A stretch of 64,000 nt of DNA from Lutibacter agarilyticus (GTDB taxonomy: Bacteria > Bacteroidota > Bacteroidia > Flavobacteriales > Flavobacteriaceae): the NCBI RefSeq assembly GCF_900188235.1, contig NZ_FZNT01000004.1, forward strand, positions 310,001-374,000. Direction: 5' to 3'. How positions within the stretch are numbered: position 1 is the stretch's first letter; every line of letters starts with the position of its first letter. The notes under the pieces are model-generated. The model ran no database searches and had not been told where the DNA came from. It saw nothing but the letters and a program-made list of their open reading frames with translations. Positions 23,421 to 37,709 of this stretch are shown one piece after another. Position numbers and translations under genes: made by a program.

Positions 23421-24533
23421 ATGAAAAATTTAAAATTAATAGGCTTCTTGATCATTTTAGCATCAAGTTTAATGTTTATTCAATGTACTAGCGACCCTAT
23501 ACAGGGTGAACAAGGAATAGCTGGTGAAAACGGTATAGATGGCATTGATGGTATTGACGGTATTGATGGTGTTGATAGTACGGCCTCTTGTTTAGCCTGT
23601 CACTCAGACAGCCATAGAGACCCTATTTATGCTTCATATGACTTATCATTACACGGCTTAGATCCTCTTCATACCGATCGTGGTACTGGTGATGAAATAA
23701 ACACATCAGATTATACAAATAGAGGATCTTGTGCGCAATGCCATACTAGTGATGGTTATAAGGACTATGTTGCAGGATATCCTATTAACCCAGGCGATGG
23801 ATACCCAGATGATTTATCATATCCATTTGGCAAACAAACTATAAGTTGTAAAACCTGCCATAGTGAACATCGTACATTTGATTTCGAAACTGATGGACAA
23901 GATTTCGCTTTAAGAAATATTGATCCTGTTGTATTAGTATATGATGGAACAACTGTTGTTGATTTTGAAGGAACTAGTAATAATTGTACTACATGTCATC
24001 AACCAAGAAATTCCTATGTGATTCCTTCAGGGGTTGATGATTATACAATTACAAGTTCACGATTTGGGCCTCACCACGGACCTCAATCTACTATATTAGA
24101 AGGGATTTTAGGAGCAAATATAGCTGGTTCTGAAGCATATCCAGGAATTGGAGCTGATGGAGATAATAGTCATAGAACAGGATTAAATGGAGTTGCATCA
24201 AATTGTGTTTCTTGCCATATGGGTACTACGACTGACGACACTGATGGATTACATTCAATGTGGCCAACAAAAAATGCATGTACAACTTGCCATACAAACG
24301 GAGCTCCAACTGAAGTTACCGATTTTACTGCTGATTTTGAAACTTTAAAAGGTTTATTAATTGCCGCTGGCTCATTAACAGAATCAGGAAGTACCGTTTC
24401 AGGAACTTATCCTATTGCTGTTGCTCAGGCAACTTGGAACTGGAAAACTTTACAAGAAGATAAAAGTAATGGTGTTCATAATCCAAAATATGCTAAAGCT
24501 TTACTTAAAAATTCAATACAAGCATTGCAATAA
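23421..24533 (+). CDS. Hexaheme c-type cytochrome lipoprotein with collagen-like linker
   Basis: A 370-residue multiheme cytochrome. A lipoprotein signal (LIILASSLMFIQC, lipid Cys22) is followed by a Gly-X-Y collagen-like stretch (residues 29-52, mostly GID repeats), then six CxxCH heme sites: CLACH (57-61), CAQCH, CKTCH, CTTCH, CVSCH and CTTCH. Extra His residues in SEHRTF, FGPHHGP and SHRTG may be distal ligands. It is probably anchored in the outer membrane and could move electrons to or across the surface. It heads a plus-strand cluster with a barrel and a quinone module. I do not recognise a named family beyond multiheme cytochrome c. Confidence 0.88.
   Translation: MKNLKLIGFLIILASSLMFIQCTSDPIQGEQGIAGENGIDGIDGIDGIDGVDSTASCLACHSDSHRDPIYASYDLSLHGLDPLHTDRGTGDEINTSDYTNRGSCAQCHTSDGYKDYVAGYPINPGDGYPDDLSYPFGKQTISCKTCHSEHRTFDFETDGQDFALRNIDPVVLVYDGTTVVDFEGTSNNCTTCHQPRNSYVIPSGVDDYTITSSRFGPHHGPQSTILEGILGANIAGSEAYPGIGADGDNSHRTGLNGVASNCVSCHMGTTTDDTDGLHSMWPTKNACTTCHTNGAPTEVTDFTADFETLKGLLIAAGSLTESGSTVSGTYPIAVAQATWNWKTLQEDKSNGVHNPKYAKALLKNSIQALQ
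23532..23576 (+). repeat. Five 9-base tandem repeats encoding Gly-Ile-Asp
   Basis: Five copies of GGTATTGAT-like units (variants GGTATAGAT, GGCATTGAT, GGTATTGAC, GGTGTTGAT) inside the hexaheme gene encode the collagen-like linker. Copy number could vary by slippage in steps of three residues. Confidence 0.85.
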
Positions 24534-24549
24534 TTATTAGATATTGATA

Positions 24550-24586
24550 AAGGTTTAGGAAGTAGATTTCTTCCTTCCTAAACCTT
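24550..24586 (+). terminator. 13-bp hairpin after the hexaheme gene
   Basis: AAGGTTTAGGAAG (24550-24562) pairs perfectly with CTTCCTAAACCTT (24574-24586) around an 11-base loop. It is followed by ATTATTTAA rather than a long T-run, so it may be a partial terminator or an mRNA stabiliser that sets different levels for the hexaheme gene and the genes behind it. Confidence 0.6.
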
Positions 24587-24681
24587 ATTATTTAACTATT
24601 TATAGATTGCTATTTTTAACTTATAATTTCAAAATTGAGATTAATAAGTAAAAGTTAATCTAACATTAAAAATAAAAACAA

Positions 24682-25068
24682 ATGAAAAAACTATTCCAAA
24701 TAGTTCTCGTTAGCAGCTTAAGTTTACTGTGCTTTTCTTGTTATTATGATGAATTGATTGATAGACCAATTGATATTCCTGAAATACCAGATCTTCCAGA
24801 AAATGTTTCGTTTAGCACTCAAGTTCAACCAATATTTACAACCAATTGTATTACGTGCCATACAAGTTCATTAAACCCTGATTTAAGGGCAGGATATTCA
24901 TATAATGCGTTGGTTCCAGATTATGTTATTGCTGGTGACCCATTAAACAGCAAACTTTTTCAAAGTCTTCCGGGTATTGGACACCCATTAAATGTAGGTT
25001 TTGAATTAAGTGATGAAGATGTTGCAATAATTTACGCATGGATTGACCAAGGCGCTGAGAACAATTAA
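24682..25068 (+). CDS. Monoheme cytochrome c lipoprotein
   Basis: A 128-residue protein with a lipoprotein signal (VLVSSLSLLCFSC, lipid Cys about 21) and one heme site, TNCITCHTSS. Downstream LPGIGHPLNVGF and VAIIYAWIDQGAENN match the small cytochrome fold found in planctomycete-type cytochrome domains. It lies between the hexaheme gene and the barrel gene, 17 bases before the latter, and is likely a heme relay at the inner face of the outer membrane. The localisation is inferred. Confidence 0.85.
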   Translation: MKKLFQIVLVSSLSLLCFSCYYDELIDRPIDIPEIPDLPENVSFSTQVQPIFTTNCITCHTSSLNPDLRAGYSYNALVPDYVIAGDPLNSKLFQSLPGIGHPLNVGFELSDEDVAIIYAWIDQGAENN

Positions 25069-25085
25069 TATTTAAGACTTTACTT

Positions 25086-25952
25086 ATGAAAAAATATACA
25101 ACCTTCTTTTTTATTTTTTTAATGCTTCCTTTCATAGGGTTTTCCCAAGATGAAGATGTTAAAGAAAAAAAAGTGAAAGAAAAGCTTGCTCGACCTACTT
25201 TTGAAAGCTCAGCTGTTATTGACAATCCAAGTGTAAACTTGTACAATAAAGGCTCTTTTGAAGTGTCAATGCAACATAGATTTGGATTGGTAACTGGAAC
25301 CAATGATTTAGTTGGTTTTTGGGGGCGTTCAAATATTAGAATAGGCGTAGCTTACTCAATTTTAAACCGATTATCAGTTGGTTTTGGTACAACTAAAGAT
25401 AAAAGGCTTCAAGATTTTAGTATAAAAGGGGCTATTTTACAACAAACAAGATCTAACAGTACACCTTTAAGTATAACTTATTATGGAAATGCAACTATAA
25501 GTGCACTTCCTAAAGGAGATTTTAATATGGTTCAAGATAGATACTCTTTCTTCAACCAAATAATAATTGCCAGACGTTTTAGCAACAATGTATCATTACA
25601 ATTTGCGGCTAGTTTATCGCATGTAAATGCGGTTCCTACAACTATGAAAAATGATGTGTTTGGAATTGCTCTAGGTGGTAAATTTAAAGTATCTCCAGGA
25701 ACAAATATATTAATTGATTACAGTCAGCCTTTAGTTAGTTACCAAGACCCTATTAGCTCAAATGCTTTAAAAACACCTAAACCAGGGATTAGTATAGGTG
25801 CTGAATTTAATACTGCAGCACACGCATTTCAAATTTTCGCTACAAACTACTGGGGTATAGTTCCACAAGAAAACTATGTGTACAATCAAAATGATTTCTT
25901 TAAAGGAGATATTTTAATTGGATTTAATATTACCCGAATTTACAATTTTTAA
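25086..25952 (+). CDS. DUF5777-type outer-membrane beta-barrel protein
   Basis: A 288-residue protein with a signal peptide (TTFFFIFLMLPFIGFSQ) and alternating hydrophobic strands ending in an aromatic residue (FNITRIYNF), the usual outer-membrane barrel end. The pattern LYNKGSFEVSMQHRFG and GFWGRSNIRIGVAYSI is that of the DUF5777 family. These barrels often sit beside cytochrome genes in Bacteroidota. Here it follows two heme lipoproteins with tight spacing, so a porin-like sheath or anchor for the cytochromes is the natural guess; no function has been shown that I know of. Confidence 0.82.
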   Translation: MKKYTTFFFIFLMLPFIGFSQDEDVKEKKVKEKLARPTFESSAVIDNPSVNLYNKGSFEVSMQHRFGLVTGTNDLVGFWGRSNIRIGVAYSILNRLSVGFGTTKDKRLQDFSIKGAILQQTRSNSTPLSITYYGNATISALPKGDFNMVQDRYSFFNQIIIARRFSNNVSLQFAASLSHVNAVPTTMKNDVFGIALGGKFKVSPGTNILIDYSQPLVSYQDPISSNALKTPKPGISIGAEFNTAAHAFQIFATNYWGIVPQENYVYNQNDFFKGDILIGFNITRIYNF

Positions 25953-25967
25953 AAATAATATACACAC

Positions 25968-26038
25968 TGAAACAGGCTGATACTCAAACATAATTTATCT
26001 TTAAACTATTTTTTCATAATAAAAAACAGCCTGTTTCA
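25968..26038. repeat. 12-base inverted repeat between barrel and Fe-S genes
   Basis: TGAAACAGGCTG (25968-25979) and CAGCCTGTTTCA (26027-26038) are perfect complements separated by 47 bases. It could fold as a long-looped hairpin in the mRNA or act as a terminator for the first half of the cluster; no strong T-run follows. Confidence 0.55.
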
Positions 26039-26075
26039 TTGTATTAAATGTTAAATTTATTTGACAAGATGTATT

Positions 26076-27056
26076 ATGAAAAACAATAAAAATGAAAAGA
26101 GTAGCACAGATAGACGTAAATTCCTGAAATTGGGATTACTGTCAAGTGTTACAGCTGTTGCAGGTACTTCACTTATTTCAAATTTAACTTCTGAAGAAAC
26201 ATCAACTTCAAAAGAAAAAATTAGACTATTAACTCCTGACGGAAAAATGGTTGAAGTTGACGCTGAAAATGTTAACAAATATCCAGAAGCTCACATTACA
26301 CCTTCAGAATCTAGAAAAGGTATTCCAGATAGAAAATTTGTAATGGTAATAGATTTGGCTAAATGTAAAAATGCACGAAAATGCGTTGAAGGCTGTCAAA
26401 AAGCTCATGATTTAGATTATAATGAAGAGTTTATGAAAGTACAACTAATTCAAGATAATCCAGAAGCTTCACCTTATTGGTTACCTAAACCTTGTTTTCA
26501 TTGTGATGAACCTCCTTGTGTTACTGTTTGTCCTACGGGTGCAACATTTAAAAGAGATGACAATATTGTTCTTGTTGATAACGACCGGTGTATTGGATGC
26601 AAATTTTGTGTAACAAGTTGCCCATACTCTGCTCGTCAATTCAACTGGGGACATAAAGATAAATTTAAAGACACTTCTCAACCATATTCACCAGAAACAA
26701 GCGTTCCCGCAGCAGAAGGCACCGTTATGAAATGTGATTTTTGTCCGGATATGTTACGTCAAGGAAAATTACCACATTGCGCACAATCATGTCCTATGGG
26801 CGTCATTTATTTTGGAGATAAAAATGAAGACATTGTTACCAATGGAGATGAAACTGTTCGTTTTTCAGAATTAATTAAAGATCGTGGTGGCTATCGTCAT
26901 TTAGAGCATTTAGGTACCAAGCCAAATGTGTATTACTTACCTGCTGTGAATAGACAATTTCCACTTGAACGTGGATTTAATGTAGATGAAGATATTATTG
27001 AACGTTATAAAGACGTTCCTTATGTTCAACAATTAAAAAAAGACGGAAAAATTTAA
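26076..27056 (+). CDS. Tat-exported ferredoxin-like subunit with four Fe-S motifs
   Basis: A 326-residue DmsB/PhsB/ActB-like electron-transfer subunit. The twin-arginine signal TDRRKFLKLGLLSSVTAVAG shows export, so the protein faces the periplasm. Four cysteine clusters follow: CKNARKCVEGC (97-107), CFHCDEPPCVTVCP, CIGCKFCVTSCP and CDFCPDML with CAQSCP. In the first, the second expected Cys is Ala100. The start is the ATG at 26076; a TTG 15 bases upstream is less likely. It is followed 17 bases on by the NrfD-like gene, its membrane partner. No molybdopterin catalytic subunit is present. Confidence 0.9.
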   Translation: MKNNKNEKSSTDRRKFLKLGLLSSVTAVAGTSLISNLTSEETSTSKEKIRLLTPDGKMVEVDAENVNKYPEAHITPSESRKGIPDRKFVMVIDLAKCKNARKCVEGCQKAHDLDYNEEFMKVQLIQDNPEASPYWLPKPCFHCDEPPCVTVCPTGATFKRDDNIVLVDNDRCIGCKFCVTSCPYSARQFNWGHKDKFKDTSQPYSPETSVPAAEGTVMKCDFCPDMLRQGKLPHCAQSCPMGVIYFGDKNEDIVTNGDETVRFSELIKDRGGYRHLEHLGTKPNVYYLPAVNRQFPLERGFNVDEDIIERYKDVPYVQQLKKDGKI

Positions 27057-27073
27057 TTTAACAACTCTTAATT

Positions 27074-28420
27074 ATGGATATAGATAAAAGAAAAAGAGAA
27101 TTGGTTAAAGAATTTTCTCCGGCTTTAGAAAATTATAGCTTAAAAACTAAAATTTGGATTGGCTGCTTAGTTGCAATTATTTTAGTAGGATTTTATGCTT
27201 TTTTAGTACAATTGATAAATGGTCATATTGTAACAGGAATGAGAGACAATGTAGTTTGGGGTATTTACATTATTAACTTTATATTTTTTGTTGGAATTAG
27301 TTATTCGGGAGCATTTATTTCAGGAATATTACATTTTTTTAAAACTCCATGGAAAAATTCTGTGTCTCGAATTGTAGAATTAATTACAGTATTGTCTTTA
27401 ATAATTGGCCCTATTTTCATATTACTATGTATTGGTAGATTGGATAGGCTTCATTATTTATTTTTATACCCAAGAATTCAATCACCTATTACTTGGGATA
27501 TTATTGCTATTATGACAGATTTAGTTGGATGTTTTATTTACTTATACTTAACTTTTATTCCAGATTTTGCAATCCTTAGAGACAATAAAGAGTTAAAAGT
27601 CGCTAAGTGGCAAAAGAAAGCTTACCGAATTTTAGCATTAAATTACCAAGACACAACCGAACAAAGAGAACGGTTACATAAAATTACAAGAACAATGTCT
27701 GTAATGATAATTGTATTGGCAATTGTAGCCTATACCGTACTTGCCTGGATATTTAGTTTAACCCTTCAACCAGGATGGAATAGCACTATATTTGCACCTT
27801 ACTTTATTATTGCTGGTTTGTATTCTGGCGTTGGTGTTATTATTATTTCAATGTATGCTATTAGAAAATATTTTCATTTAGAAAGATATATTAGAAAAGT
27901 ACATTTTATTGCTGCAGGTATTGTATTACTCGTAATGTCGTTACTTTTTGGATACTTTACATTTAGTGAATATTTCGCACGTTGGTTTAGTCATAAAGAA
28001 AACGATGTTCATTTGTTAGATACATTATTTAACCGTTATTTTTGGGAATTTATTTTCGCAAATTACATTGGAGTTTTAGTGCCAATAGTGATCTTGTTTT
28101 TTAAAAAATTTAGAACTATAAAATCCATCACTTTTGCAGCCATTATTGCCGTATTAGGATTGTGGTTAAATCGTTTTTTAATTGTTGTTCCAACATTAGA
28201 AACACCTTATTTACCAATTCAAGATACTAGAGCTGAATTTGTAAACTATTCTGCTACTTGGGTTGAATATTCATTAAGCCTAACTGGTATTGCAGCATTT
28301 TGTTTGCTATTTACATTGCTTATTAAGTTTGTTCCTATTATACCAATGTCTGGAATAATAGATTATGAAAGAGACCAAAAAAAGTATAATAAAAGGCAGC
28401 CTAAAAAAGCAGTTAAGTAA
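27074..28420 (+). CDS. NrfD/PsrC/ActC-like quinone-interacting membrane protein
   Basis: A 448-residue integral membrane protein with about ten transmembrane segments. WGIYIINFIFFVGISYSGAF and LYLTFIPDFAILRDNKE resemble ActC of alternative complex III and other NrfD-family members that exchange electrons between quinone and a periplasmic Fe-S protein without heme. With the Tat Fe-S subunit just before it, it forms a standard quinol dehydrogenase or quinone reductase pair. The cytochrome genes around it suggest the quinol-oxidising direction, but this is inferred. Confidence 0.9.
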   Translation: MDIDKRKRELVKEFSPALENYSLKTKIWIGCLVAIILVGFYAFLVQLINGHIVTGMRDNVVWGIYIINFIFFVGISYSGAFISGILHFFKTPWKNSVSRIVELITVLSLIIGPIFILLCIGRLDRLHYLFLYPRIQSPITWDIIAIMTDLVGCFIYLYLTFIPDFAILRDNKELKVAKWQKKAYRILALNYQDTTEQRERLHKITRTMSVMIIVLAIVAYTVLAWIFSLTLQPGWNSTIFAPYFIIAGLYSGVGVIIISMYAIRKYFHLERYIRKVHFIAAGIVLLVMSLLFGYFTFSEYFARWFSHKENDVHLLDTLFNRYFWEFIFANYIGVLVPIVILFFKKFRTIKSITFAAIIAVLGLWLNRFLIVVPTLETPYLPIQDTRAEFVNYSATWVEYSLSLTGIAAFCLLFTLLIKFVPIIPMSGIIDYERDQKKYNKRQPKKAVK

Positions 28421-28440
28421 TAGTCATAAAATTAGAAATT

Positions 28441-29370
28441 ATGAAAAGTAATCTCATGAAACATACATTTTACGCTTCTTTTATTGCAATTCTATTGTTC
28501 AGCAACTTAGGTTTTGCACAGCAAGAAGAACAAAAAGAAGAATTTGATGTTCGTAAATATAAAACGGTTTATAAATTTAATTCGTTCAAACAAAGTGATA
28601 ATTCACGCTTGTTAGAAGTTAGTTTTATAGTTCAAAACAAAAAAGACAGAAAAGATAAAATACCAGTTTTTGAAGCTGAAATTTATTTTTACAATGTTTT
28701 AAACGATGAAGAATTATTATTAGGAACAGCATTCACTTCAAAAGAAGGAATAGCTAAACTCACGCTTCCTTCAAGCCAAAATTATGAATTAGATGAAGAT
28801 GGATTCATAAATTTAACAGCACGTTTTATAGGTTCTAAAGGATTAAAAAGCGCTAAAAAAAGTTTAGCTGTAAAAGATTTACACTTAGAACTAAATTTGA
28901 AAGAAATTGATAGTGTTAAAACAGTTATAGTTAAAGCTTATACGCTTACCCTTGACAGCCTACAAACAAAAGTACCTTTAGAAGAAGCTGATATTACAAT
29001 TTTTGTTAAAGGTATGTTGTCTAATATGCCAATTAAAGAAGGAAGTATTGAAGATGGTGTATTTGAATTTGAATTCCCAACCAATATCCCAGGCGACGGT
29101 GATGGTGATGTAACTGTTATAGCAAACATTGAAGATCACGATGAATTTGGTAACGTAGCTCAAGAAAAATTTATAAATTGGGGTAGTCATAAAATTACAC
29201 CTGTAAAAAAAGTAAAAAACACCCTATGGTCTGAATCAGCTCCACTGTGGATGTATATTGTTTTAAGTATTTTACTTTTAGGTGTTTGGGCTAATTACAT
29301 TTATACAATTTTTAACCTATTTAAAATAAAAAAAGAAGGAAAAAGTATTAATTTAGCAACAGAAGAATAA
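28441..29370 (+). CDS. Unrecognised periplasmic protein with C-terminal anchor
   Basis: A 309-residue protein with a signal peptide (FYASFIAILLFSNLGFAQ), a charged beta-rich region, an acidic glycine stretch (PGDGDGDV) and one C-terminal membrane helix (WMYIVLSILLLGVWANYIYTIF) followed by a short Lys-rich tail. It has no Cys and no heme site. The position between the NrfD-like gene (20 bases) and a cytochrome gene suggests a structural or docking subunit of the same complex. A second ATG five codons on is an alternative start. I do not recognise a family. Confidence 0.78.
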   Translation: MKSNLMKHTFYASFIAILLFSNLGFAQQEEQKEEFDVRKYKTVYKFNSFKQSDNSRLLEVSFIVQNKKDRKDKIPVFEAEIYFYNVLNDEELLLGTAFTSKEGIAKLTLPSSQNYELDEDGFINLTARFIGSKGLKSAKKSLAVKDLHLELNLKEIDSVKTVIVKAYTLTLDSLQTKVPLEEADITIFVKGMLSNMPIKEGSIEDGVFEFEFPTNIPGDGDGDVTVIANIEDHDEFGNVAQEKFINWGSHKITPVKKVKNTLWSESAPLWMYIVLSILLLGVWANYIYTIFNLFKIKKEGKSINLATEE

Positions 29371-29444
29371 CACAACAAAACCTAAAAAATTTGGTATTGT
29401 TTTTGATATTTAATTAATAACGAATAAAATAAAATCCTAAAAAA

Positions 29445-29846
29445 ATGAAAAAATTCAAAATCTTAATGCTGATTGGGGTAATTACCCTTGGTCTATTTTC
29501 TTTCACTAAATTAGTGCAAGAAGAGTGGGTTGTACCTGCTAAATATGAAAAAATGACGAATCCTACCGAAGCCAGTGATGACAACATTTCTGACGGAAAA
29601 ATGTTATACGGTAAACATTGTAAATCTTGCCACGGTAAAGAAGGTTTAGGTGATGGTCAAAAAGCTGATGAAGTTGAAGGCGATTTAGGAGATTTTTCTT
29701 CGGAAGAATTTCAAGCACAATCTGATGGAGCTTTATTTTACAAAAGTTATATTGGTAGAGATGACATGCCTAACTTTGAAAAGAAAATGCCAGACGAAGA
29801 TGATATGTGGTACATAGTAAGCTATATGAGAACCTTAGGAGAATAA
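29445..29846 (+). CDS. Periplasmic monoheme cytochrome c
   Basis: A 133-residue class I cytochrome with a signal or anchor sequence (FKILMLIGVITLGLFSF), heme site GKHCKSCHGKEGLGDG and probable Met axial ligand in RDDMPNFEKKMP, followed by the C-terminal helix DDMWYIVSYMRTLGE. Strongly acidic, which fits a soluble electron shuttle. It is the last gene of the cluster and ends just before a bidirectional terminator. It could carry electrons from the NrfD/Fe-S module to the lipoprotein cytochromes or to a terminal oxidase. Confidence 0.9.
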   Translation: MKKFKILMLIGVITLGLFSFTKLVQEEWVVPAKYEKMTNPTEASDDNISDGKMLYGKHCKSCHGKEGLGDGQKADEVEGDLGDFSSEEFQAQSDGALFYKSYIGRDDMPNFEKKMPDEDDMWYIVSYMRTLGE

Positions 29847-29863
29847 TACACTATATTATAAAC

Positions 29864-29894
29864 AAAAAAACCGAGCTCTTAGCTCGGTTTTTTT
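29864..29894. terminator. Bidirectional terminator between cytochrome and hemN
   Basis: A7 + CCGAGCT-CTT-AGCTCGG + T7 gives a strong symmetric hairpin between convergent genes. Confidence 0.92.
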
Positions 29895-29909
29895 GTTTAT
29901 AATCTTTTT

Positions 29910-31268
29910 TTATATAGTCATTGAAAAAACCCTCGTATCAGGTTTATTTTCAAGTAGTCTAAGGTCAAAAGCCATACAAATATTACGTACAAACATTCTT
30001 CCCTCCTCTTTTACTGTTATTTTAGTATCAGAAACTTCAAGTAAACCATCATCAATCATTTCTTGCAAACGTTCAATAATTTCATTTTTAATTGTAACGT
30101 CTAAACCAATTTTCCATTCAGTTTCTAGGTTACACATTAAATTTAAAATGTGTTTTCTTACAATTAAATCTTGTTCGGTTAATAAATGACCTCTAAATAT
30201 TGGAATTACACCACTATTTACTTTTTCGGTATATACATCAACATCTTTTTCATTTTGAGCAAACGCATACCAAGAATCTGAAATTGAAGACATCCCCAAA
30301 CCGATCATTAATTCGGTTTTACCAGCTGTATAACCCATAAAATTACGGTGTAACTTTTTAGATTCCATAGCCTTGTGTAATGAATCAGTTGGTAAAGCAA
30401 AATGATCCATTCCTACTTCAATATAGCCATTATCAAAAAACAACTGCTTTCCTAATTCGTATAAATAACGCTTTTCATTGTCTTTAGGTAAATCATTTTC
30501 ATCAAAACCACGCTGACCAACACCTTTTATCCAAGGTACGTGTGCATAGCTATAATACGCTATTCTATCTGGTTTTAATTCAATAGTATTTTTTATGGTA
30601 TTTCTAATGCTTTCTTCTGTTTGAAACGGCAATCCGAAAATTAAGTCGTGACTTATAGATTCATATCCAATTTTACGTGACAAATCATTTACACGTTTTA
30701 CTTGCTCAAAACTCTGAACTCTATGAATTGCTTTTTGAACTTTAGGATCATAATCTTGAATTCCAAAACTATTTCTACGTGAACCTAAATCGTATAAAGT
30801 TTGCAATTGTTCTTCGGAAGTATGATTTGGATGTCCTTCATAACTGAAGTCGAAGGTTTCAAACTTATCAGCTCTTTTAAATATACCGTTGATTAGCTTT
30901 TTTAAATTTTTCGAAGAAAAAAAAGTAGGAGTTCCACCACCTAAATGAATTTCTCTAATTTTTGGTCGTTCAACCAATAAATCACAATATAAATCCCATT
31001 CTTTTAAAACGGTATCCATATACGGTTGTTCAACTTCGTGACGTTTGGTTATTTTTTTATGACACGCACAAAACGTACATAAACTTTCACAAAACGGTAA
31101 ATGAATATATAAGCTAATCCCTTCTACTTGATTACTTTCGTCAAACGATTTTTTAACTGTACGTTCCCAATCTTGCTGAGCTATACCTTCTTTATCCCAA
31201 AAAGGCACCGTTGGATAACTAGTATATCTTGGTCCTGGAATGTTATATTTTTGAATTAAGTTTTTCAT
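29910..31268 (-). CDS. hemN: Oxygen-independent coproporphyrinogen III dehydrogenase
   Basis: A 452-residue radical-SAM enzyme that decarboxylates coproporphyrinogen III to protoporphyrinogen IX without oxygen. The N-terminal YNIPGPRYTSYPTVPFW is the true-HemN signature, and the cluster motif is LPFCESLCTFCACHKK (CxxxCxxC plus the extra Cys); EIHLGGGTPTFFS and SFGIQDYDPKVQ follow. Full length. It is the last gene of the minus-strand heme run and converges with the cytochrome cluster. Use of the anaerobic-type enzyme suggests low-oxygen growth, though many flavobacteria use HemN generally. Confidence 0.95.
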   Translation of the reverse strand: MKNLIQKYNIPGPRYTSYPTVPFWDKEGIAQQDWERTVKKSFDESNQVEGISLYIHLPFCESLCTFCACHKKITKRHEVEQPYMDTVLKEWDLYCDLLVERPKIREIHLGGGTPTFFSSKNLKKLINGIFKRADKFETFDFSYEGHPNHTSEEQLQTLYDLGSRRNSFGIQDYDPKVQKAIHRVQSFEQVKRVNDLSRKIGYESISHDLIFGLPFQTEESIRNTIKNTIELKPDRIAYYSYAHVPWIKGVGQRGFDENDLPKDNEKRYLYELGKQLFFDNGYIEVGMDHFALPTDSLHKAMESKKLHRNFMGYTAGKTELMIGLGMSSISDSWYAFAQNEKDVDVYTEKVNSGVIPIFRGHLLTEQDLIVRKHILNLMCNLETEWKIGLDVTIKNEIIERLQEMIDDGLLEVSDTKITVKEEGRMFVRNICMAFDLRLLENKPDTRVFSMTI

Positions 31269-31275
31269 TTGCGTC

Positions 31276-31348
31276 TAGTTGTTGGTTGTTGGCTACTTAT
31301 TGTTAGTTTCATATTCATCAAAAACTAACAACTAAAAACTAACAACTA
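31276..31348. repeat. Imperfect inverted and direct repeats between hemE and hemN
   Basis: The right half contains AAAACTAACAACT twice in tandem (31321-31346) and the left half is a diverged reverse complement (TAGTTGTTGGT ... TGTTAGTTT, 31276-31309). The right arm touches the hemE stop codon. It could form an mRNA hairpin. Confidence 0.5.
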
Positions 31349-32368
31349 TTTATACTCCTTTACAGCATCAATAAATGCTTTGGCGTGGTCTAATGGTACA
31401 TGTGGTAAAATACCGTGACCTAAATTCACAATATATTTATCTTTTCCAAAACCATCAATCATTTCTTTCACCACGGTTTTAATCACTTTTGGGGGTGATA
31501 ATAAACGAACCGGATCAAAGTTACCTTGTAAAGTTATTTTATTTCCTGTTAACTTTCTTGCAACTTGTGGTGCAACTGTCCAATCTACACCTAAAGCTGA
31601 TGCATTTGAATTTGCCATATCCTCTAAAGCAAACCAACATCCTTTTCCAAAGGCAATTACCGGAGCATCATCTTTCAATGCCTCAATAATTTGATTGATA
31701 TACTGCCAAGAAAATTCTTGATAATCAGTTGGAGATAACATTCCTCCCCAAGAATCAAATATTTGAACAGCATTTACGCCCGATTTTACTTTTTCTTTCA
31801 AATAAGCAATAGTGGTATCTGTAATTTTCTGTAATAAAGTATGAGCAGCAACTGGTTGTGTAAAACAAAACTCTTTGGCTTTATCAAAGTTTTTAGACCC
31901 TTGACCTTGAACACAGTAACATAAAATTGTCCAAGGAGACCCCGCAAAACCAATTAAAGGAATTTCATCATTCAACAACTCTTTAGTAGCTTTAATAGCT
32001 TCCATAACGTAGCCTAATTCAACAGTAACATCTGGTACAATTACATTATCTACATCTTTTTGAGAACGAATAGGATTTGGCAACCAAGGTCCTATTCCAG
32101 GTTTCATTTCAACCTCAATATTCATTGCCTGCGGAATTACTAAAATATCAGAAAATAAAATAGCGGCATCCATTCCGTATCTTCGAATTGGTTGTACTGT
32201 AATTTCCGAAGCCAATTCTGGAGTTCTACAACGTGTAAAAAAGTCGTATTTCTCACGAATTGCAATAAACTCAGGTAAATATCTTCCTGCCTGACGCATC
32301 ATCCAAACTGGTGGACGCTCAACTGTTTCACCTTTTAAGGCTCTTAAAAATAAATCGTTCTTAATCAT
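31346..32368 (-). CDS. hemE: Uroporphyrinogen decarboxylase
   Basis: A 340-residue cytoplasmic enzyme removing four acetate carboxyls from uroporphyrinogen III. Family signatures: [17 protein letters not shown] near the N-terminus, [26 protein letters not shown] and [10 protein letters not shown] near the C-terminus. Complete and typical in length. It lies between hemL and hemN in the heme run, with 36 bases to hemL. Confidence 0.96.
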
Positions 32369-32404
32369 CTATCTTATGTCGTATTTTTAGTTAGGTGTAT
32401 ACTC

Positions 32405-33700
32405 TTATTTATTAAATTTATTTGCAACAGCTTTCATTGCTATTTGAATTGCAGATCTCACTTTGTAAATATCTCTTTTTGTCATTGCAGTCGATAAAAA
32501 CCAAGATTCAAACTGAGATGGAGGCAAAAACACACCATTTTCCATCATCTTCCAGAAGAAAGTTTTAAACTTATCGGTATCACTTGTTTGAGCTGTTTTA
32601 AAGTCAACTACTCTTGTTTTTGTAAAAAATGGATTGATCATAGAACCGAATCTATTCACTTGTAAATCAATACCATTTGCTTTTGCTGCCATTTTCATTT
32701 CACGCTCTAAAAACGCTGCTGTTTTTTCAAAATCTTTATAAGGATCTTGATTTTTCAACTCTTTTAAAGTCGCAATTCCACAACTCATTGCAATTGGGTT
32801 TCCTGACAAAGTTCCGGCTTGGTACATATCTCCTAACGGCGCTACCATTTCCATAATTTCATTTCTAGCTCCATAAGCTCCTACTGGAAAACCACCACCT
32901 ACAACTTTACCTAAACAAGTAATATCTGCTTCAAAACCTAATAACTCTTGAGCTCCACCAAATTGAGAACGAAAACCTGTCATAACCTCATCAGCAATTA
33001 GTAAAATACCACTTGCTTTTGTAAGTTCTTTTAATTCTTTTATAAATTTAGCTGAAGGTTGAATTACCCCCATATTACCAGCAATTGGCTCAATAATTAT
33101 GGCAGCAACATCATCATTTCTTAAATGGCGCTCTACACTTTTAATATTGTTGAATTCTGCAATTAAAGTATTTTTTACAGCTTCATCTGGCACTCCTTTA
33201 CTTCCTGGAATACTTAATGTTGCCAAACCTGAACCTGCTGCAACTAATAATGCATCTGAATGCCCATGGTAACAGCCTGCAAATTTTATAATTTTATTTT
33301 TTCCTGTAAAAGCTCTCGCCAAACGAATTGCACTTAAAACTGCTTCCGTTCCTGAGTTTACAAAACGAACTTTATCCATTCCTGGAAAAGCATCACAAAC
33401 TAACTCTGCCATTATAATTTCACCTTTGGTAGAAGCCCCAAAAGTGTAACCATTTTTCATGTATTTTTTTACCGTTTTTTCAACAGTGCTATTTCTGTGA
33501 CCTAAAATCATTGGTCCATAAGAAAGTACCATATCTACATACTCATTGCCATCAACATCGAATATTTTACTTCCTTTAGCTCGATCAATAAAAATAGGAA
33601 CTCCACCAACAGACTTAAATGCTCTTACTGGTGAATTTACCGCTCCAACTAGATTTTTTTTACCTCTTGTATATAATTCAATTGATTTATCTATCTTCAT
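32405..33700 (-). CDS. hemL: Glutamate-1-semialdehyde 2,1-aminomutase
   Basis: A 431-residue PLP enzyme making 5-aminolevulinate. Markers: VNSPVRAFKSVGG, VNSGTEAVLSAIRLARA, ILLIADEVMTGFR and DITCLGKVVGGGFPVGAYG with the PLP Lys. With HemA this confirms the C5 pathway. It sits between hemB and hemE; the 110-base gap before it contains diverged repeats. Confidence 0.96.
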   Translation of the reverse strand: MKIDKSIELYTRGKKNLVGAVNSPVRAFKSVGGVPIFIDRAKGSKIFDVDGNEYVDMVLSYGPMILGHRNSTVEKTVKKYMKNGYTFGASTKGEIIMAELVCDAFPGMDKVRFVNSGTEAVLSAIRLARAFTGKNKIIKFAGCYHGHSDALLVAAGSGLATLSIPGSKGVPDEAVKNTLIAEFNNIKSVERHLRNDDVAAIIIEPIAGNMGVIQPSAKFIKELKELTKASGILLIADEVMTGFRSQFGGAQELLGFEADITCLGKVVGGGFPVGAYGARNEIMEMVAPLGDMYQAGTLSGNPIAMSCGIATLKELKNQDPYKDFEKTAAFLEREMKMAAKANGIDLQVNRFGSMINPFFTKTRVVDFKTAQTSDTDKFKTFFWKMMENGVFLPPSQFESWFLSTAMTKRDIYKVRSAIQIAMKAVANKFNK

Positions 33701-33720
33701 AATCTGTTATTTTTTGGTAA

Positions 33721-33779
33721 TTGAGCGAAGTTGAAATTACTCATCACTTCTAATTAGTTTATTTTGAGCTTAATCGAAA
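33721..33779. repeat. Two diverged 16-base direct repeats
   Basis: TTGAGCGAAGTTGAAA (33721-33736) and TTGAGCTTAATCGAAA (33764-33779) agree at 12 of 16 positions. They resemble the dispersed TGAGCGAAGTCGAAA-type intergenic sequence seen in flavobacterial genomes. They lie between hemB and hemL. Confidence 0.4.
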
Positions 33780-33810
33780 GACTCAGTAACCTATTTTTGC
33801 TCAATAGTTT

Positions 33811-34779
33811 TTATTTTTTCAATAATAATTTTGCAACATCTTTCGCAAAATACGTAATAATAATATCGGCTCCTGCTCTTTTCATAGATAGTAAACTTTC
33901 CATCATTACACGATCACCATCAATCCAACCTTTTTCAGCTGCAGCCTTTATCATGGCATATTCACCACTTACATTATAACACGCTATTGGTCGGTCGAAA
34001 TTGTTTTTTAAATCACGAATAATATCTAAATAAGCCAATGCTGGTTTTACCATTAAAATATCAGCACCTTCTTGATCGTCAAAAGTAGCTTCACGCAAAC
34101 CTTCATCTCTGTTTGAAGGATCCATTTGATAGGTTCTTCTATCACCAAAAGTTGGAGCAGAATCTGCCGCATCTCTAAAAGGACCGTAAAAAGCTGATGA
34201 GTATTTTACCGCATACGACATGATTGGTAAGTTTGGAAAACCTGTATTATCCAATGCTTCACGAATACTTAAAATCATACCATCCATCATTCCTGAAGGC
34301 GCCACCATATCAACTCCTGCCTTTGCATGAGATATTACCTGTTTTGCAATATTTACAAGTGTAGCATCATTATCAACGTCATTTTCGTGAATAATTCCGC
34401 AATGTCCGTGGCTTGTGTATTCACAAAAACAAACATCCGTAATTACATATAAACTTGGGTAATTCTTTTTTATGAAACGAACCGCTTGTTGCATAATTCC
34501 GTCATCATTCCAAGTTTCAGAACCAGTATCATCTTTTTCAGAAGGAATTCCAAATAATAAAACTGCTGGTATATCTAAAGCAACAACCTCATCTAATTCT
34601 TTTGAAATAGTATCTAATGAAAAACGTTTAATTCCGGGCATCGAAACAATTTCCGTTTCAATATTTTCTCCTTCTTCAATAAATAAAGGATAAATTAAAT
34701 CGTCAATAGTTAATTTATGTTCTCTAACTAAACGACGAATGTTTTCCGTTTTCCTTAAACGTCTGGTTCTATTTATCAT
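33811..34779 (-). CDS. hemB: Porphobilinogen synthase (delta-aminolevulinate dehydratase)
   Basis: A 322-residue enzyme condensing two 5-aminolevulinates. The metal-site segment [14 protein letters not shown] keeps three Cys, as in zinc-dependent forms. The two Schiff-base Lys are in [15 protein letters not shown] and [11 protein letters not shown]. The start overlaps the hemCD stop by 4 bases, indicating coupled translation. Confidence 0.96.
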
Positions 34780-36395
34780 TGTTGATTTTTTTGTGATTCT
34801 TCTATTTCTTCAAAATGTGCATTTACAGATTTCAATAAGCTTTCAACTGTTGAAACTTTTGAAACAATTACGTTTTCAAAATGTTTTATAGCCTCGGCTG
34901 CAGTAGTATCTCCAATACAAAAAGCAACACTTGTACTTGTTGAATTATCTTTTAAATAACTCTCAATCCCTGATGGGCTATAAAAAAGAATTCCTTTGTA
35001 TTTTTCTTCAATTTTTCGAGGTGTTAATTGTGTTTTATAACACTCCACTTCGTTTACTGTAATACTGTTTTCAGTTAAAATAGTAGGTAATTCATCTCTT
35101 CTTTTATTTCCACAGAAGAATGTAATGTTTTTATCTTCTAAATTATCAACCAAATACGCAGCTAACTTTTGAGCATCGTTTTCTGATTGCTTAACTTTTC
35201 CTATTCTTTTTTCAATAAGTCTTTTTGTTCTTCTACCAACACAATAAATATTTTCAAAATTTAGTTCTAAAGCATCAAAGTTATTTAACAATGCTTCAAC
35301 TGCATTTTGACTGGTAAATACCACATTTTTAATTGGCTTTTTAACAATAACGGGTTTTAACCTATTATTTCTAATAGTTATAAAATCGCTACTTGCAACC
35401 CCAATTTTTGAATCTAATTGATTTGTTTGATCTAAGGATAAACTTTTGGTTGAATAAATAAGCGTTGATTTTTCAATGTCTTCATTATGAATAGAGCGCA
35501 TTAAATTTTTAGCGCCTCTTTCTAACAAAAATTTAGCACCATATTCTCCTAAATCCCAAGCATTATCTACAGGAACCGTTTTTGAAAACTCCATTTTATT
35601 TCTTCCGTCAGGGCTAAATAAACAAGCTTTAAATTTTACTTCTTCTTTTATAATTAACGCCAATGCTCCAATTGGAGCTGTACAACCACCTTCTAAAACA
35701 CGTAAAAAATCACGCTCAATTTTTACACATTTTGCAGTTTCTTCGTGATTAATTTGTTTTACAAACTCTAATAATTCTTCATCCTTATCAAGTGCAGCAA
35801 CCATTACCGCTCCTTGCGCAGGCGCAGGAACCATCCAATCTAAAATTATATGTTCTTCTTGTGGAGGCAATAACCTCAATCTTTTTAAACCAATTTTAGC
35901 AAAAATTGCTCCATCCCAATCATTATCTTCTAACTTTTGAAGGCGTGAATTTACATTACCTCGCAAACCAACAATGGTATGATTTGGGTAACGATACAAC
36001 CACTGTGCTTTTCTACGTAGACTTCCTGTGGCGATTACTGCATTTTTTTCACCAAAAAAATCTTCACCATCTTTCATTACCAACACATCATTAAAATCAC
36101 CTCTTTTAATAACAGCAGCTTGTACTATTCCTTCTGGTAATTGGGTAGGTACATCTTTAAAAGAATGTACAGCAATATCAATTTTACCATTTAATAAAGC
36201 AACATCCAAATTTTTGGTAAAAACACCTGTAACTCCTAGTTCATATAAGGGTTTATCTAAAACCACATCTCCAATAGAATCGATTTTTACAATTTCGGTT
36301 TCGCAACCAAAATGTTCTAATTGTTGCGCCACAGTGTTAGCTTGCCACATCGCCAAATCACTAGAGCGTGTCCCAATTCTTATTATTTTATCCAT
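34776..36395 (-). CDS. hemCD: Hydroxymethylbilane synthase fused to uroporphyrinogen-III synthase
   Basis: A 539-residue fusion covering two consecutive steps. Residues 1 to about 300 are Hem[36 protein letters not shown], and the dipyrromethane Cys in [10 protein letters not shown]. Residues from about 310 to the end are HemD-like: [49 protein letters not shown] and [11 protein letters not shown]. HemD sequences are weakly conserved, but the position and fold-like pattern are convincing. It is 1 base from hemA and overlaps hemB. Confidence 0.93.
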
Positions 36396-36396
36396 T

Positions 36397-37650
36397 CTAT
36401 ATTTCTGTTATTTCTGTATTGAAAATTTTGCTAATTACATTTATACTTTGATCAACTGATGTTTCATCAGCTTTTAAATGCTTTACAAATTGTGTAGTTA
36501 TTTTTTGAATCATACGGTTTGTTACAAACTCTGCGTGTTCAATATTAAAGTCTTTAATTTTTTTTGAATGAAAATCTATTTCATCATGCTGAATTGACTG
36601 TAATGATTCTTTCAACGCATTTACCGCTGGCACAAACTTTCGGTGAGAAATCCAGTCGTTAAATTCGGATTTATATTTTTCAATTATTTTTTCCGTTGCC
36701 GGAATTTCACTTTTACGTGTTTCAATAGTTTTTTCAGTAATTTTAGAAAGCTCATCTACATTTACCAACGTTATTCCTTTCATTTCTTTTACAGCTACAT
36801 CAACATTTTCAGGCATCGATAAATCTAAAATCAATAAATTGTTATGACCTTTTAAATGTTCTTTTTGAACCGTTGGAAAACTAGCTCCAGTTGAAACAAT
36901 TAAAATATCCGCTAATTGAATTTCTGTTGCTAAATTTTCAAGAGGAACCGCTTTTACTGTTGGATGTTCTTCAACAAAACTCAAGGTTTTATCATACGTT
37001 CTGTTCACCAATGTAATGTGCTCGCTAGATGTGTACTCTAGAATATTTTTACACGTATTTTTCCCCATATCACCCAATCCGTAAATAAGAATTTTTTGAT
37101 CTTTGTGATTTGGTATTTTCTCAATAATATATTGAATAGCAGCATAAGAAACCGAAGTAGTTCCAGAACTTAACTTGGTGTTGTTTTTCACATCTTTACT
37201 TGCCTGCAAAACCAAATTCATTAAACGTTCAATGTAAGTATTGGTTGTTTTATATTTTTTGGCCTGTTTGTACGATTCTTTTAACTGACCAACAATTTCG
37301 TAATCACCTAAAATTTGACTTTCTAAACCAGTCGCAATTTTAAACAAATGTTTTACAGCGTCTTTATTGGAATATACATTTGAGACATTGATAAAATCCT
37401 CAACTTTCCCATTTGAATATTTTATCAATAAGCTAATCAGTTCAAAAGGGTGTTTTGCAAAACCAGTAATTTCGGTTCTATTACAAGTTGACAACACAAA
37501 AATACCATCAATACCCGTTGCTTTAGCTTCCTTTAATAATAATTTTTGATTTTCTTTAGATATACTAAAAGCACCACGCATTGATGCATCTGCTTTTTTA
37601 TAACTTAAACCTACATTGTAAAATTTTGTAGCTATATTTTCGTGATTCAT
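36397..37650 (-). CDS. hemA: Glutamyl-tRNA reductase
   Basis: A 417-residue enzyme that reduces glutamyl-tRNA to glutamate-1-semialdehyde, the first committed step. The catalytic Cys is in VLSTCNRTEI; the NADPH domain shows ILIYGLGDMGKNTCKN. The start is the ATG at 37648-37650 (MNHENIATKFYNVGLSYKKA); a TTG start at 37680 is rejected because it lies inside the -7 promoter box. It heads the hemA-hemCD-hemB-hemL-hemE-hemN run. Confidence 0.95.
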   Translation of the reverse strand: MNHENIATKFYNVGLSYKKADASMRGAFSISKENQKLLLKEAKATGIDGIFVLSTCNRTEITGFAKHPFELISLLIKYSNGKVEDFINVSNVYSNKDAVKHLFKIATGLESQILGDYEIVGQLKESYKQAKKYKTTNTYIERLMNLVLQASKDVKNNTKLSSGTTSVSYAAIQYIIEKIPNHKDQKILIYGLGDMGKNTCKNILEYTSSEHITLVNRTYDKTLSFVEEHPTVKAVPLENLATEIQLADILIVSTGASFPTVQKEHLKGHNNLLILDLSMPENVDVAVKEMKGITLVNVDELSKITEKTIETRKSEIPATEKIIEKYKSEFNDWISHRKFVPAVNALKESLQSIQHDEIDFHSKKIKDFNIEHAEFVTNRMIQKITTQFVKHLKADETSVDQSINVISKIFNTEITEI

Positions 37651-37677
37651 AAAAAAAGTATTACCAGTAAGTATCGA

Positions 37678-37709
37678 CAAAAGTACAACCTTATACTTTT
37701 GAAAAACAA
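37678..37709 (-). promoter_or_regulatory. hemA promoter (-33 TTG, -7 TACTTTTG)
   Basis: On the minus strand TTG (37707-37709), 21 bases, then TACTTTTG (37678-37685). This fits the Bacteroidota consensus and leaves a leader of about 25 bases. Confidence 0.6.

Follow-up and report, generated by a model that had tools for sequence, protein, structure and literature searches.

The question raised by the locus described here is where electrons from the quinone pool would go when an NrfD-type membrane subunit is encoded beside outer-membrane-type heme proteins. The locus lies at 23421-29846 of the window, which is the whole stretch of DNA analysed (64,000 nucleotides of Lutibacter agarilyticus, Flavobacteriaceae; contig NZ_FZNT01000004.1, positions 310,001 to 374,000). 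In a preliminary description, it was seen as a quinone-to-outer-membrane cytochrome module lacking a catalytic subunit. It is a conserved and probably complete menaquinol-to-outer-membrane cassette, and the 'missing' catalytic subunit is probably the product of its first gene, the hexaheme lipoprotein HexC. The host genome is 4.1 Mb, and 36 same-genus relatives were among the 60 genomes searched. All seven same-strand genes are present, as confirmed in the open reading frame list of the window, with families assigned by Pfam and heme motifs:

23421..24533, + strand: HexC, 370-residue hexaheme lipoprotein of NrfA/OcwA class, candidate terminal reductase
24682..25068, + strand: PSC, 128-residue monoheme outer-membrane-type lipoprotein (heme motif CITCH; mature N-terminus CYYDE)
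25086..25952, + strand: D5777, DUF5777 outer-membrane beta-barrel, 12 strands predicted (PF19089, E 2.8e-67)
26076..27056, + strand: FeS, ferredoxin subunit with Tat-type signal (ATG start; a TTG at 26061 is also open)
27074..28420, + strand: NrfD, ActC-like quinone-site membrane subunit (PF03916, E 2.8e-34)
28441..29370, + strand: Anch, 309-residue protein, periplasmic and with a membrane helix at its C-terminus as judged from the sequence
29445..29846, + strand: MonoC, 133-residue ActE-like monoheme cytochrome c (Cytochrome_CBB3, E 9e-9)

Six CxxCH motifs were counted in HexC and one each in PSC and MonoC, and lipoprotein-type signals were read on HexC and PSC. The Cytochrome_CBB3 model of Pfam matches PSC as well, under its cut-off (E 4e-4). 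No molybdopterin gene was found among the seven genes by Pfam or by sequence, and to that extent the claim of an absent catalytic subunit stood; it is doubtful in view of HexC, which appears to be of the NrfA/OcwA class and aligns with octaheme nitrite reductase over hemes 2-6.

Synteny was counted in 45 loci obtained by an NrfD scan of genome contigs (loci, genomes, and contigs are labelled L, G, and C). The full seven-gene order on one strand is kept in 22 of them, four of which (L044, L046, L060, L074) have a paralogous FeS-NrfD-Anch-MonoC unit first and the window-type unit second. The remaining 23 loci comprise nine from other or unassigned phyla, all without D5777 (L066-L070, L073, L077-L079), 12 partial sets, mostly close to contig ends within the fetched stretch, and two loci, L064 (Bacteroidales) and L072 (Balneolales), where HexC is absent and the other six genes are present. 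In 35 of the 45 loci, Anch and NrfD are found together in the same orientation. The three leading genes and the four-gene unit are also found separately or in tandem. The flanks of the cassette vary from genus to genus; because they differ in other genera and the order is nevertheless kept in 22 loci, the clustering is not due to chance, and the doubt expressed in the preliminary description, that the genes might not be conserved together, is removed. Its other doubt, that a linked catalytic subunit might explain the complex as a known reductase, proved partly justified, as the candidate HexC lies inside the set itself.

Within the genus, cassette-type NrfD (E at most 1e-57) was found in 31 of 37 genomes, window genome included. 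HexC is present in 23 of these 31 and in none of the six others (p 0.0013, a value that ignores relatedness and comes from a set with several incomplete genomes). Phylum-wide, an NrfD match with E <= 1e-60 was found in 12 of 395 genomes, again including that of the window. Eight of the 11 further genomes have D5777 and PSC near FeS-NrfD-Anch (L142-L145, L148-L151), with the two parts on opposite strands in L144, and MonoC is present in seven of these eight. The others are two molybdopterin sets without D5777 according to Pfam (L146, L147) and one locus cut by a contig end (L152). Linkage of a quinol module to outer-membrane-type heme lipoproteins and a barrel, as originally noticed, is thus conserved beyond the family.

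In PDB profile searches, HexC matched octaheme nitrite reductase 8rv0 (E 1.3e-11, covering profile positions 90-343), OcwA 6i5b (E 1.7e-11), and NrfA (E 1.6e-9 and weaker). OcwA was also the top Foldseek match of the HexC model (mean predicted local distance difference test, pLDDT, of 64), with E 6e-5 and 20% identity. On similarity of sequence and predicted fold over the pentaheme core and the helical end, HexC can be placed in the NrfA/octaheme/OcwA class. Three of its elements are of particular concern:

23484..23588, + strand: HexC residues 22-56, lipid Cys and collagen-like G-X-D stalk, with 8 triplets here
23730..23744, + strand: HexC residues 104-108, heme-2 motif CAQCH, opposite the CXXCK-bound heme in the alignment with octaheme nitrite reductase
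24072..24077, + strand: H218-H219, putative distal pocket of heme 2, from alignment and conservation

In the profile alignment, heme 2 falls on CIQCK of 8rv0 and hemes 3-6 on its next motifs; C, C, and H of the heme-2 motif are invariant in 35 of 35 HexC sequences. H218 is present in all 35 as well, and residue 219 is His in 22, Tyr in 12, and Glu in one. Further His conserved outside CxxCH are at 78 (32/35) and at 150, 251, 278, and 353 (35/35 each). Four of these five, together with H218, follow the NrfA order GRGH / QHP / GIHGKRG / TDHH / SFHAP, the NrfA places having been read from L121 and L122 and being presumably those of distal ligands; His150 was assigned to heme 1. With OcwA, HexC aligns in segments, heme 2 lying on a CLKCH motif which, by arithmetic from printed positions and not by superposition, would be that of heme 5. 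In the available part of PMC6703420, this is the open heme, above which HH 380/381 are located. Heme 2 of HexC is therefore probably at the catalytic-heme position of NrfA, five-coordinate and with H218 in its pocket. The conserved extra His could also be taken for those of an all-bis-His wire; this was dropped, since heme 2 is aligned with the catalytic heme. For OcwA too, the accessible text of the same paper holds that sufficient His does not imply bis-His hemes.

The stalk has a median of 8 G-X-Y triplets in 35 homologs, with Y mostly Asp; the minimum of one triplet belongs to L128, the start of which was misread. G41, G44, G47, and G50 are invariant in the 33 rows of alignment A1, from which two of the 35 homologs (L058 and L128) were omitted; alignments A2 and A3 hold 53 of 55 listed sequences, including the window's own, and 59 of 65, respectively.

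FeS contains Fer4_11 (Pfam, E 8e-21). Its best NCBIfam model is DsrO, at 163.7 bits under the cut-off of 200, and its PDB matches are PsrB (2vpw_B, E 5e-26, the best) and the Fe-S domain of ActB (E 2e-18 and 6e-18). The second Cys of motif I is Ala in 47 of 47 window-type sequences and likewise in 22 of 23 paralogs, so one cluster would have three Cys ligands in this motif. Among solved structures, those closest to NrfD are four ActC-position chains (E 2.5e-48 to 2.5e-42), with 6f0k_C (ActC, E 2.5e-48) at the top, and then three ActF chains. The ActC-position chains carry the names 'Polysulphide reductase NrfD' or 'Alternative Complex III subunit C', and 8k9e_C is taken by us to be ActC. In the alignment, Ser164 and Asp169 of ActC are retained as S137 and D142; the functional roles of ActC residues are those described in the available part of PMC8076601. 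The DsrP and QrcD models of NCBIfam each match NrfD under their cut-offs.

Position 119 of NrfD is Cys in 43 of 45 window-type sequences, the other two being outside the search pattern, and in the set of paralogs and other NrfD it is Asp in 22 of 32 and Cys in three, with seven unmatched. In a tree of 48 rows (45 different), the Cys type forms a single clade with support of 100/100 that takes in two Bacteroidales copies and one of G037; the rows of alternative complex III (ACIII) and Nap sit on long branches there. For Anch, no Pfam or NCBIfam family was above threshold (DUF7248 was sub-threshold, E 0.089), and its PDB matches are weak beta-sandwich ones, to intimin (E 0.17) and a transthyretin-like protein (E 0.5). 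MonoC is 28% identical to the protein that takes the ActE position in the window genome (E 2e-11). Among relatives of MonoC, 11 distinct sequences are predicted to be lipoproteins that carry the cytochrome domain on a K/E/T/V-rich linker of 122-136 residues, an indication that electrons have to get as far as the outer membrane.

Two observations concern the neighbours of such modules. A miniprotein of 86-103 residues with a Tat-type signal (SRRG.LP.LG) is encoded immediately 5' of the paralogous FeS gene at L125, L126, L127, L129, L130, L132, L135, and others; it is not in the window cassette, and in distant families it gave a weak match to the FeS profile. At L043, L056, L060, and L128, a second set adjoins the cassette, with a tetraheme protein, a small Fe-S protein, and a membrane protein of 398-399 residues, which at L128 is NrfD by Pfam (E 2.8e-32), and thus this is another NrfD-type complex.

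The AlphaFold2 model of D5777, built on a 53-row alignment, has a mean pLDDT of 90.6 and 12 strands. Foldseek matched it to NanC, FapF, OmpG, and larger porins, with a template modelling score by query length of 0.51 at best. A 12-strand barrel is too narrow for a cytochrome domain. The barrel as housing of a cytochrome was rejected on account of its predicted 12 strands. As it also has no heme motif, the earlier proposal of an electron path ending at the outer-membrane barrel is not supported. Same-strand CX2-4CH proteins shorter than 240 residues are found within 1.2 kb of 66 of 72 distinct D5777. NrfD lies within 9 kb of 41 of the 72, a biased count because many loci were fetched via NrfD.

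The cassette has, in our estimate, about an even chance of encoding a branch of respiration dedicated to carrying electrons from menaquinol to the outer membrane, with HexC as terminal reductase. Gene content, homology, and conservation are observed, and the barrel size is observed on the predicted model; from these we infer the direction of electrons and the order of carriers as follows. The NrfD/ActC-like subunit, with FeS and Anch, would oxidise menaquinol on the periplasmic side, and the Fe-S clusters would pass electrons to the ActE-like MonoC. MonoC would deliver them to the outer-membrane heme lipoproteins, PSC (paired with the DUF5777 barrel) and HexC. HexC, held by lipid on its collagen-like stalk, would act as terminal reductase with five hemes that are probably bis-His carriers and heme 2 that is probably five-coordinate, the open heme being inferred like the acceptor. 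The latter could be extracellular (a final acceptor or a shuttle, as with OcwA) or a small nitrogen or sulfur compound, as with NrfA/MccA.

Several points weigh against this. In NrfD, ActC His139 is replaced by Cys119 and Asp253 by Ile226 in the alignment, so that NrfD cannot be assumed to oxidise quinol. Confidence in the HexC model is low, with residues 19-66 and 79-165 under a pLDDT of 50, and just two Foldseek matches are under 0.001, both OcwA chains. Posterior values of the heme-2 pocket alignment are low, hhalign of HexC against two NrfA rows aligned the C-terminal part alone (Prob 51), and H218 could be a plain ligand of heme 2. HexC lacks the proximal Lys of NrfA, having CXXCH and no CXXCK, and the Tyr after heme 3 is replaced (QPR). 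Pfam models for the MtrC/MtrF domain (PF22113, 29 of 33 HexC) and for c7/c3 cytochromes (33 and 32) match more members than PF02335 does (12), which is also unfavourable. Finally, HexC is not indispensable, because it is absent in some relatives that have EB_dh or YceI lipoproteins near PSC instead.

In another reading, held tentatively, a stripped-down ACIII-like quinol dehydrogenase is wired to a platform of DUF5777 barrel and monoheme lipoprotein with exchangeable heads and no MtrA-type wire. The head would be the collagen-stalked OcwA-like hexaheme reductase, an EB_dh heme protein, or a YceI protein. A lipoprotein of the EB_dh family is encoded 5' of PSC in many NrfD-linked relatives, and PF09459 was found in seven of seven, alongside HexC at L129, L134, and L143 and without HexC at L125, L150, L151, and L064. 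A YceI lipoprotein is near PSC at L148 and L064, no family was found for the neighbour of PSC at L144, and D5777 without NrfD goes with YceI in four of four candidates tested with Pfam. Heme motifs of these lipoproteins may be atypical, with CX4CH rather than CxxCH in PSC-type and CX3CH in EB_dh proteins (L144, L148, L150, L151, L064, L086, L097). At L126 (G012:C1:2855001-2875000), D5777 is broken by TAG and HexC is absent, and proteins with 9, 4, and 11 CxxCH adjoin the paralogous NrfD unit.

Extracellular electron transfer is a possible sub-case of the HexC branch, and since both kinds of acceptor are possible, the two overlap; as an explanation of its own, it is rather doubtful. In it, PSC, HexC, or EB_dh lipoproteins would face outward and reduce an external solid or shuttle, and the DUF5777 barrel would be part of the crossing. 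It is favoured by OcwA as first structural match of HexC (E 6e-5), by a weak match to S-layer cytochrome 6qvm (E 0.027), and by the MtrC/MtrF domain in 29 of 33 HexC. The minimal surface-export signal of Capnocytophaga has a polar or basic residue (Lys) followed by two acidic ones, at about +3 to +5, according to the part of PMC5080379 available. EB_dh lipoproteins, which begin C-T-H-D-D, fit it by eye, and PSC, which begins CYYD(E), comes near to it, with acidic residues at +4 in 63% and at +5 in 46% of 67 family members. However, HexC (35 sequences, L128 misread) is acidic at +4 in 94% and at +5 in 3%, and misses the two-acid signal because +5 is rarely acidic. The 12 predicted strands of the barrel and its lack of a heme motif also oppose outward transfer, and the set encodes no heme wire across the outer membrane.

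It is unlikely that the cassette is a spare quinol:cytochrome c oxidoreductase that distributes electrons in the periplasm to soluble reductases, e.g., NosZ and cytochrome c peroxidases. The ActE-like MonoC would suit this role, and nosZ goes with cassette NrfD in the genus (28 of 31 genomes with it, 1 of 6 without; Fisher p 7e-4, uncorrected for relatedness). Yet the window genome has no NosZ, NirS, or NirK match, and G006 and G011 have no NosZ match either; a role as NosZ feeder alone was for this reason rejected. Nor is there an association with NrfA (20/31 vs. 5/6, p 0.64, 37 genus genomes), the NrfA-family match of the window genome lying elsewhere, at C11:432553, and the co-conserved barrel and lipoproteins would be left unexplained. 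Denitrification genes are reported for Lutibacter profundi, with no mention of NrfD in the available part of PMC5219744. Quite improbable is the reverse direction, in which an outer-membrane or external donor would feed menaquinone through HexC and PSC in the manner of Qrc, a cytochrome:quinone oxidoreductase of the same fold (PMC8076601, part available): DsrP and QrcD models do match NrfD under their cut-offs, but the carrier is an ActE-like monoheme cytochrome and not a low-potential multiheme c3, and no conserved donor enzyme was seen in the listed neighbourhoods, where most neighbours were not searched by family.

Other respiratory sets are encoded in the window genome. One is of ACIII type (L084), one is PsrABC-like, and one, which has FeS and NrfD genes to itself, contains a Nap-like molybdoenzyme; in addition, a fused Fe-S/NrfD protein is encoded next to a protein of 963 residues. 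They were named by position and sequence, except where Pfam was used. A 631-residue protein with 12 CxxCH diverges from the PsrABC-like set (L081, 13385-15277, contig C21).

Three structures were predicted in and after the cassette:

24540..24600, + strand: hairpin between the HexC and PSC genes, -19.4 kcal/mol, z -5.2, a possible partial terminator or stabiliser
25960..26050, + strand: hairpin between the DUF5777 and FeS genes, -19.2 kcal/mol, z -5.5
29857..29901, no strand given: strong intrinsic terminator separating the cassette from the convergent tetrapyrrole genes, 20-pair stem, -29.2 kcal/mol, z -12.5

With two intergenic hairpins of z near -5, the cassette may be transcribed in three blocks. 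Scanning for terminators yielded 10 hits against 2.9 expected, and sigma-70 hits were about as frequent as expected by chance (40 against 37.7). Upstream of HexC, a loose FNR/CRP-like pattern matched 5 of 19 loci with no recurrence and none in the window, and the Bacteroidetes promoter pattern matched 0 of 19. Tetrapyrrole (heme) biosynthesis genes on the - strand at 29910-37680 converge on the cassette and have the terminator in common with it; Pfam identified URO-D, ALAD, Porphobil_deam with HEM4, GlutR, Aminotran_3, and Radical_SAM. The radical-SAM gene beside them is in the fetched stretch of 15 of 21 same-genus loci, window included, and not among the neighbourhoods listed for other genera.

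No paper on DUF5777 was found in the literature searched, outside of which most subscription journals lie. Among the matches listed, there was no title on an outer-membrane respiratory route in Flavobacteriaceae, and none combined 'collagen-like' with a multiheme cytochrome or OcwA. In sediments, Bacteroidota are abundant. For DUF5777, the cassette provides a redox context that can be tested; it also brings an ACIII-like quinol module together with partners of the outer membrane, and it is one gene cluster on which respiration at the outer membrane can be probed. If the platform with exchangeable heads is true, many Bacteroidota would have cell-surface respiration lacking any MtrA-type wire.

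Among known systems, porin-cytochrome conduits such as MtrAB and Cyc2 combine an outer-membrane barrel and a cytochrome, as the cassette does. In contrast to them, the cassette has a barrel of 12 predicted strands, which in the AlphaFold2 prediction is not wide enough for a cytochrome, a separate monoheme lipoprotein, and no periplasmic decaheme protein. DUF5777 operons of Flavobacteriales (PSC, YceI) are similar in having the barrel near a monoheme-type protein (66/72) and differ in that NrfD-less forms carry YceI. OcwA of Thermincola potens shares with HexC the C-terminal NrfA-like heme core and the helical end and, if the heme-2 pocket of HexC is as proposed, a CXXCH heme facing a His-His pair (PMC6703420, in part), whereas HexC has six hemes instead of nine, is a Gram-negative lipoprotein of 20% identity, and has no second active site. 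NrfABCD and MccACD likewise contain NrfD, a four-cluster-type Fe-S protein, and an NrfA-class multiheme protein; unlike these, HexC is a hexaheme protein with a lipid anchor and a collagen-like stalk, its heme 2 is bound by CXXCH and not by CXXCK, and the cassette adds the barrel and the monoheme lipoprotein and has an NrfD nearest to ActC.

The initial premise that conventional NrfD complexes have a molybdopterin or multiheme catalytic subunit is not supported, as ACIII, Qrc, and Nhc exchange electrons with cytochromes and reduce no small substrate, according to the available part of PMC8076601, Table 1 of which nonetheless lists their multiheme subunit under 'catalytic'. ACIII (ActABCDEF) is a quinol oxidoreductase without molybdenum, and the cassette is similar to it in NrfD, which is nearest to ActC, in FeS, which is like the Fe-S domain of ActB, and in MonoC, which is like ActE. 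It differs in lacking the pentaheme ActA, the large ActB domain, ActD, and ActF, in an FeS that scores higher with PsrB and has its three-Cys motif at I and not at III as in ActB, and in Cys for His139, and the same genome has the separate ACIII-type set. With these differences, the inner-membrane part of the cassette resembles, in its sequences, a trimmed alternative complex III.

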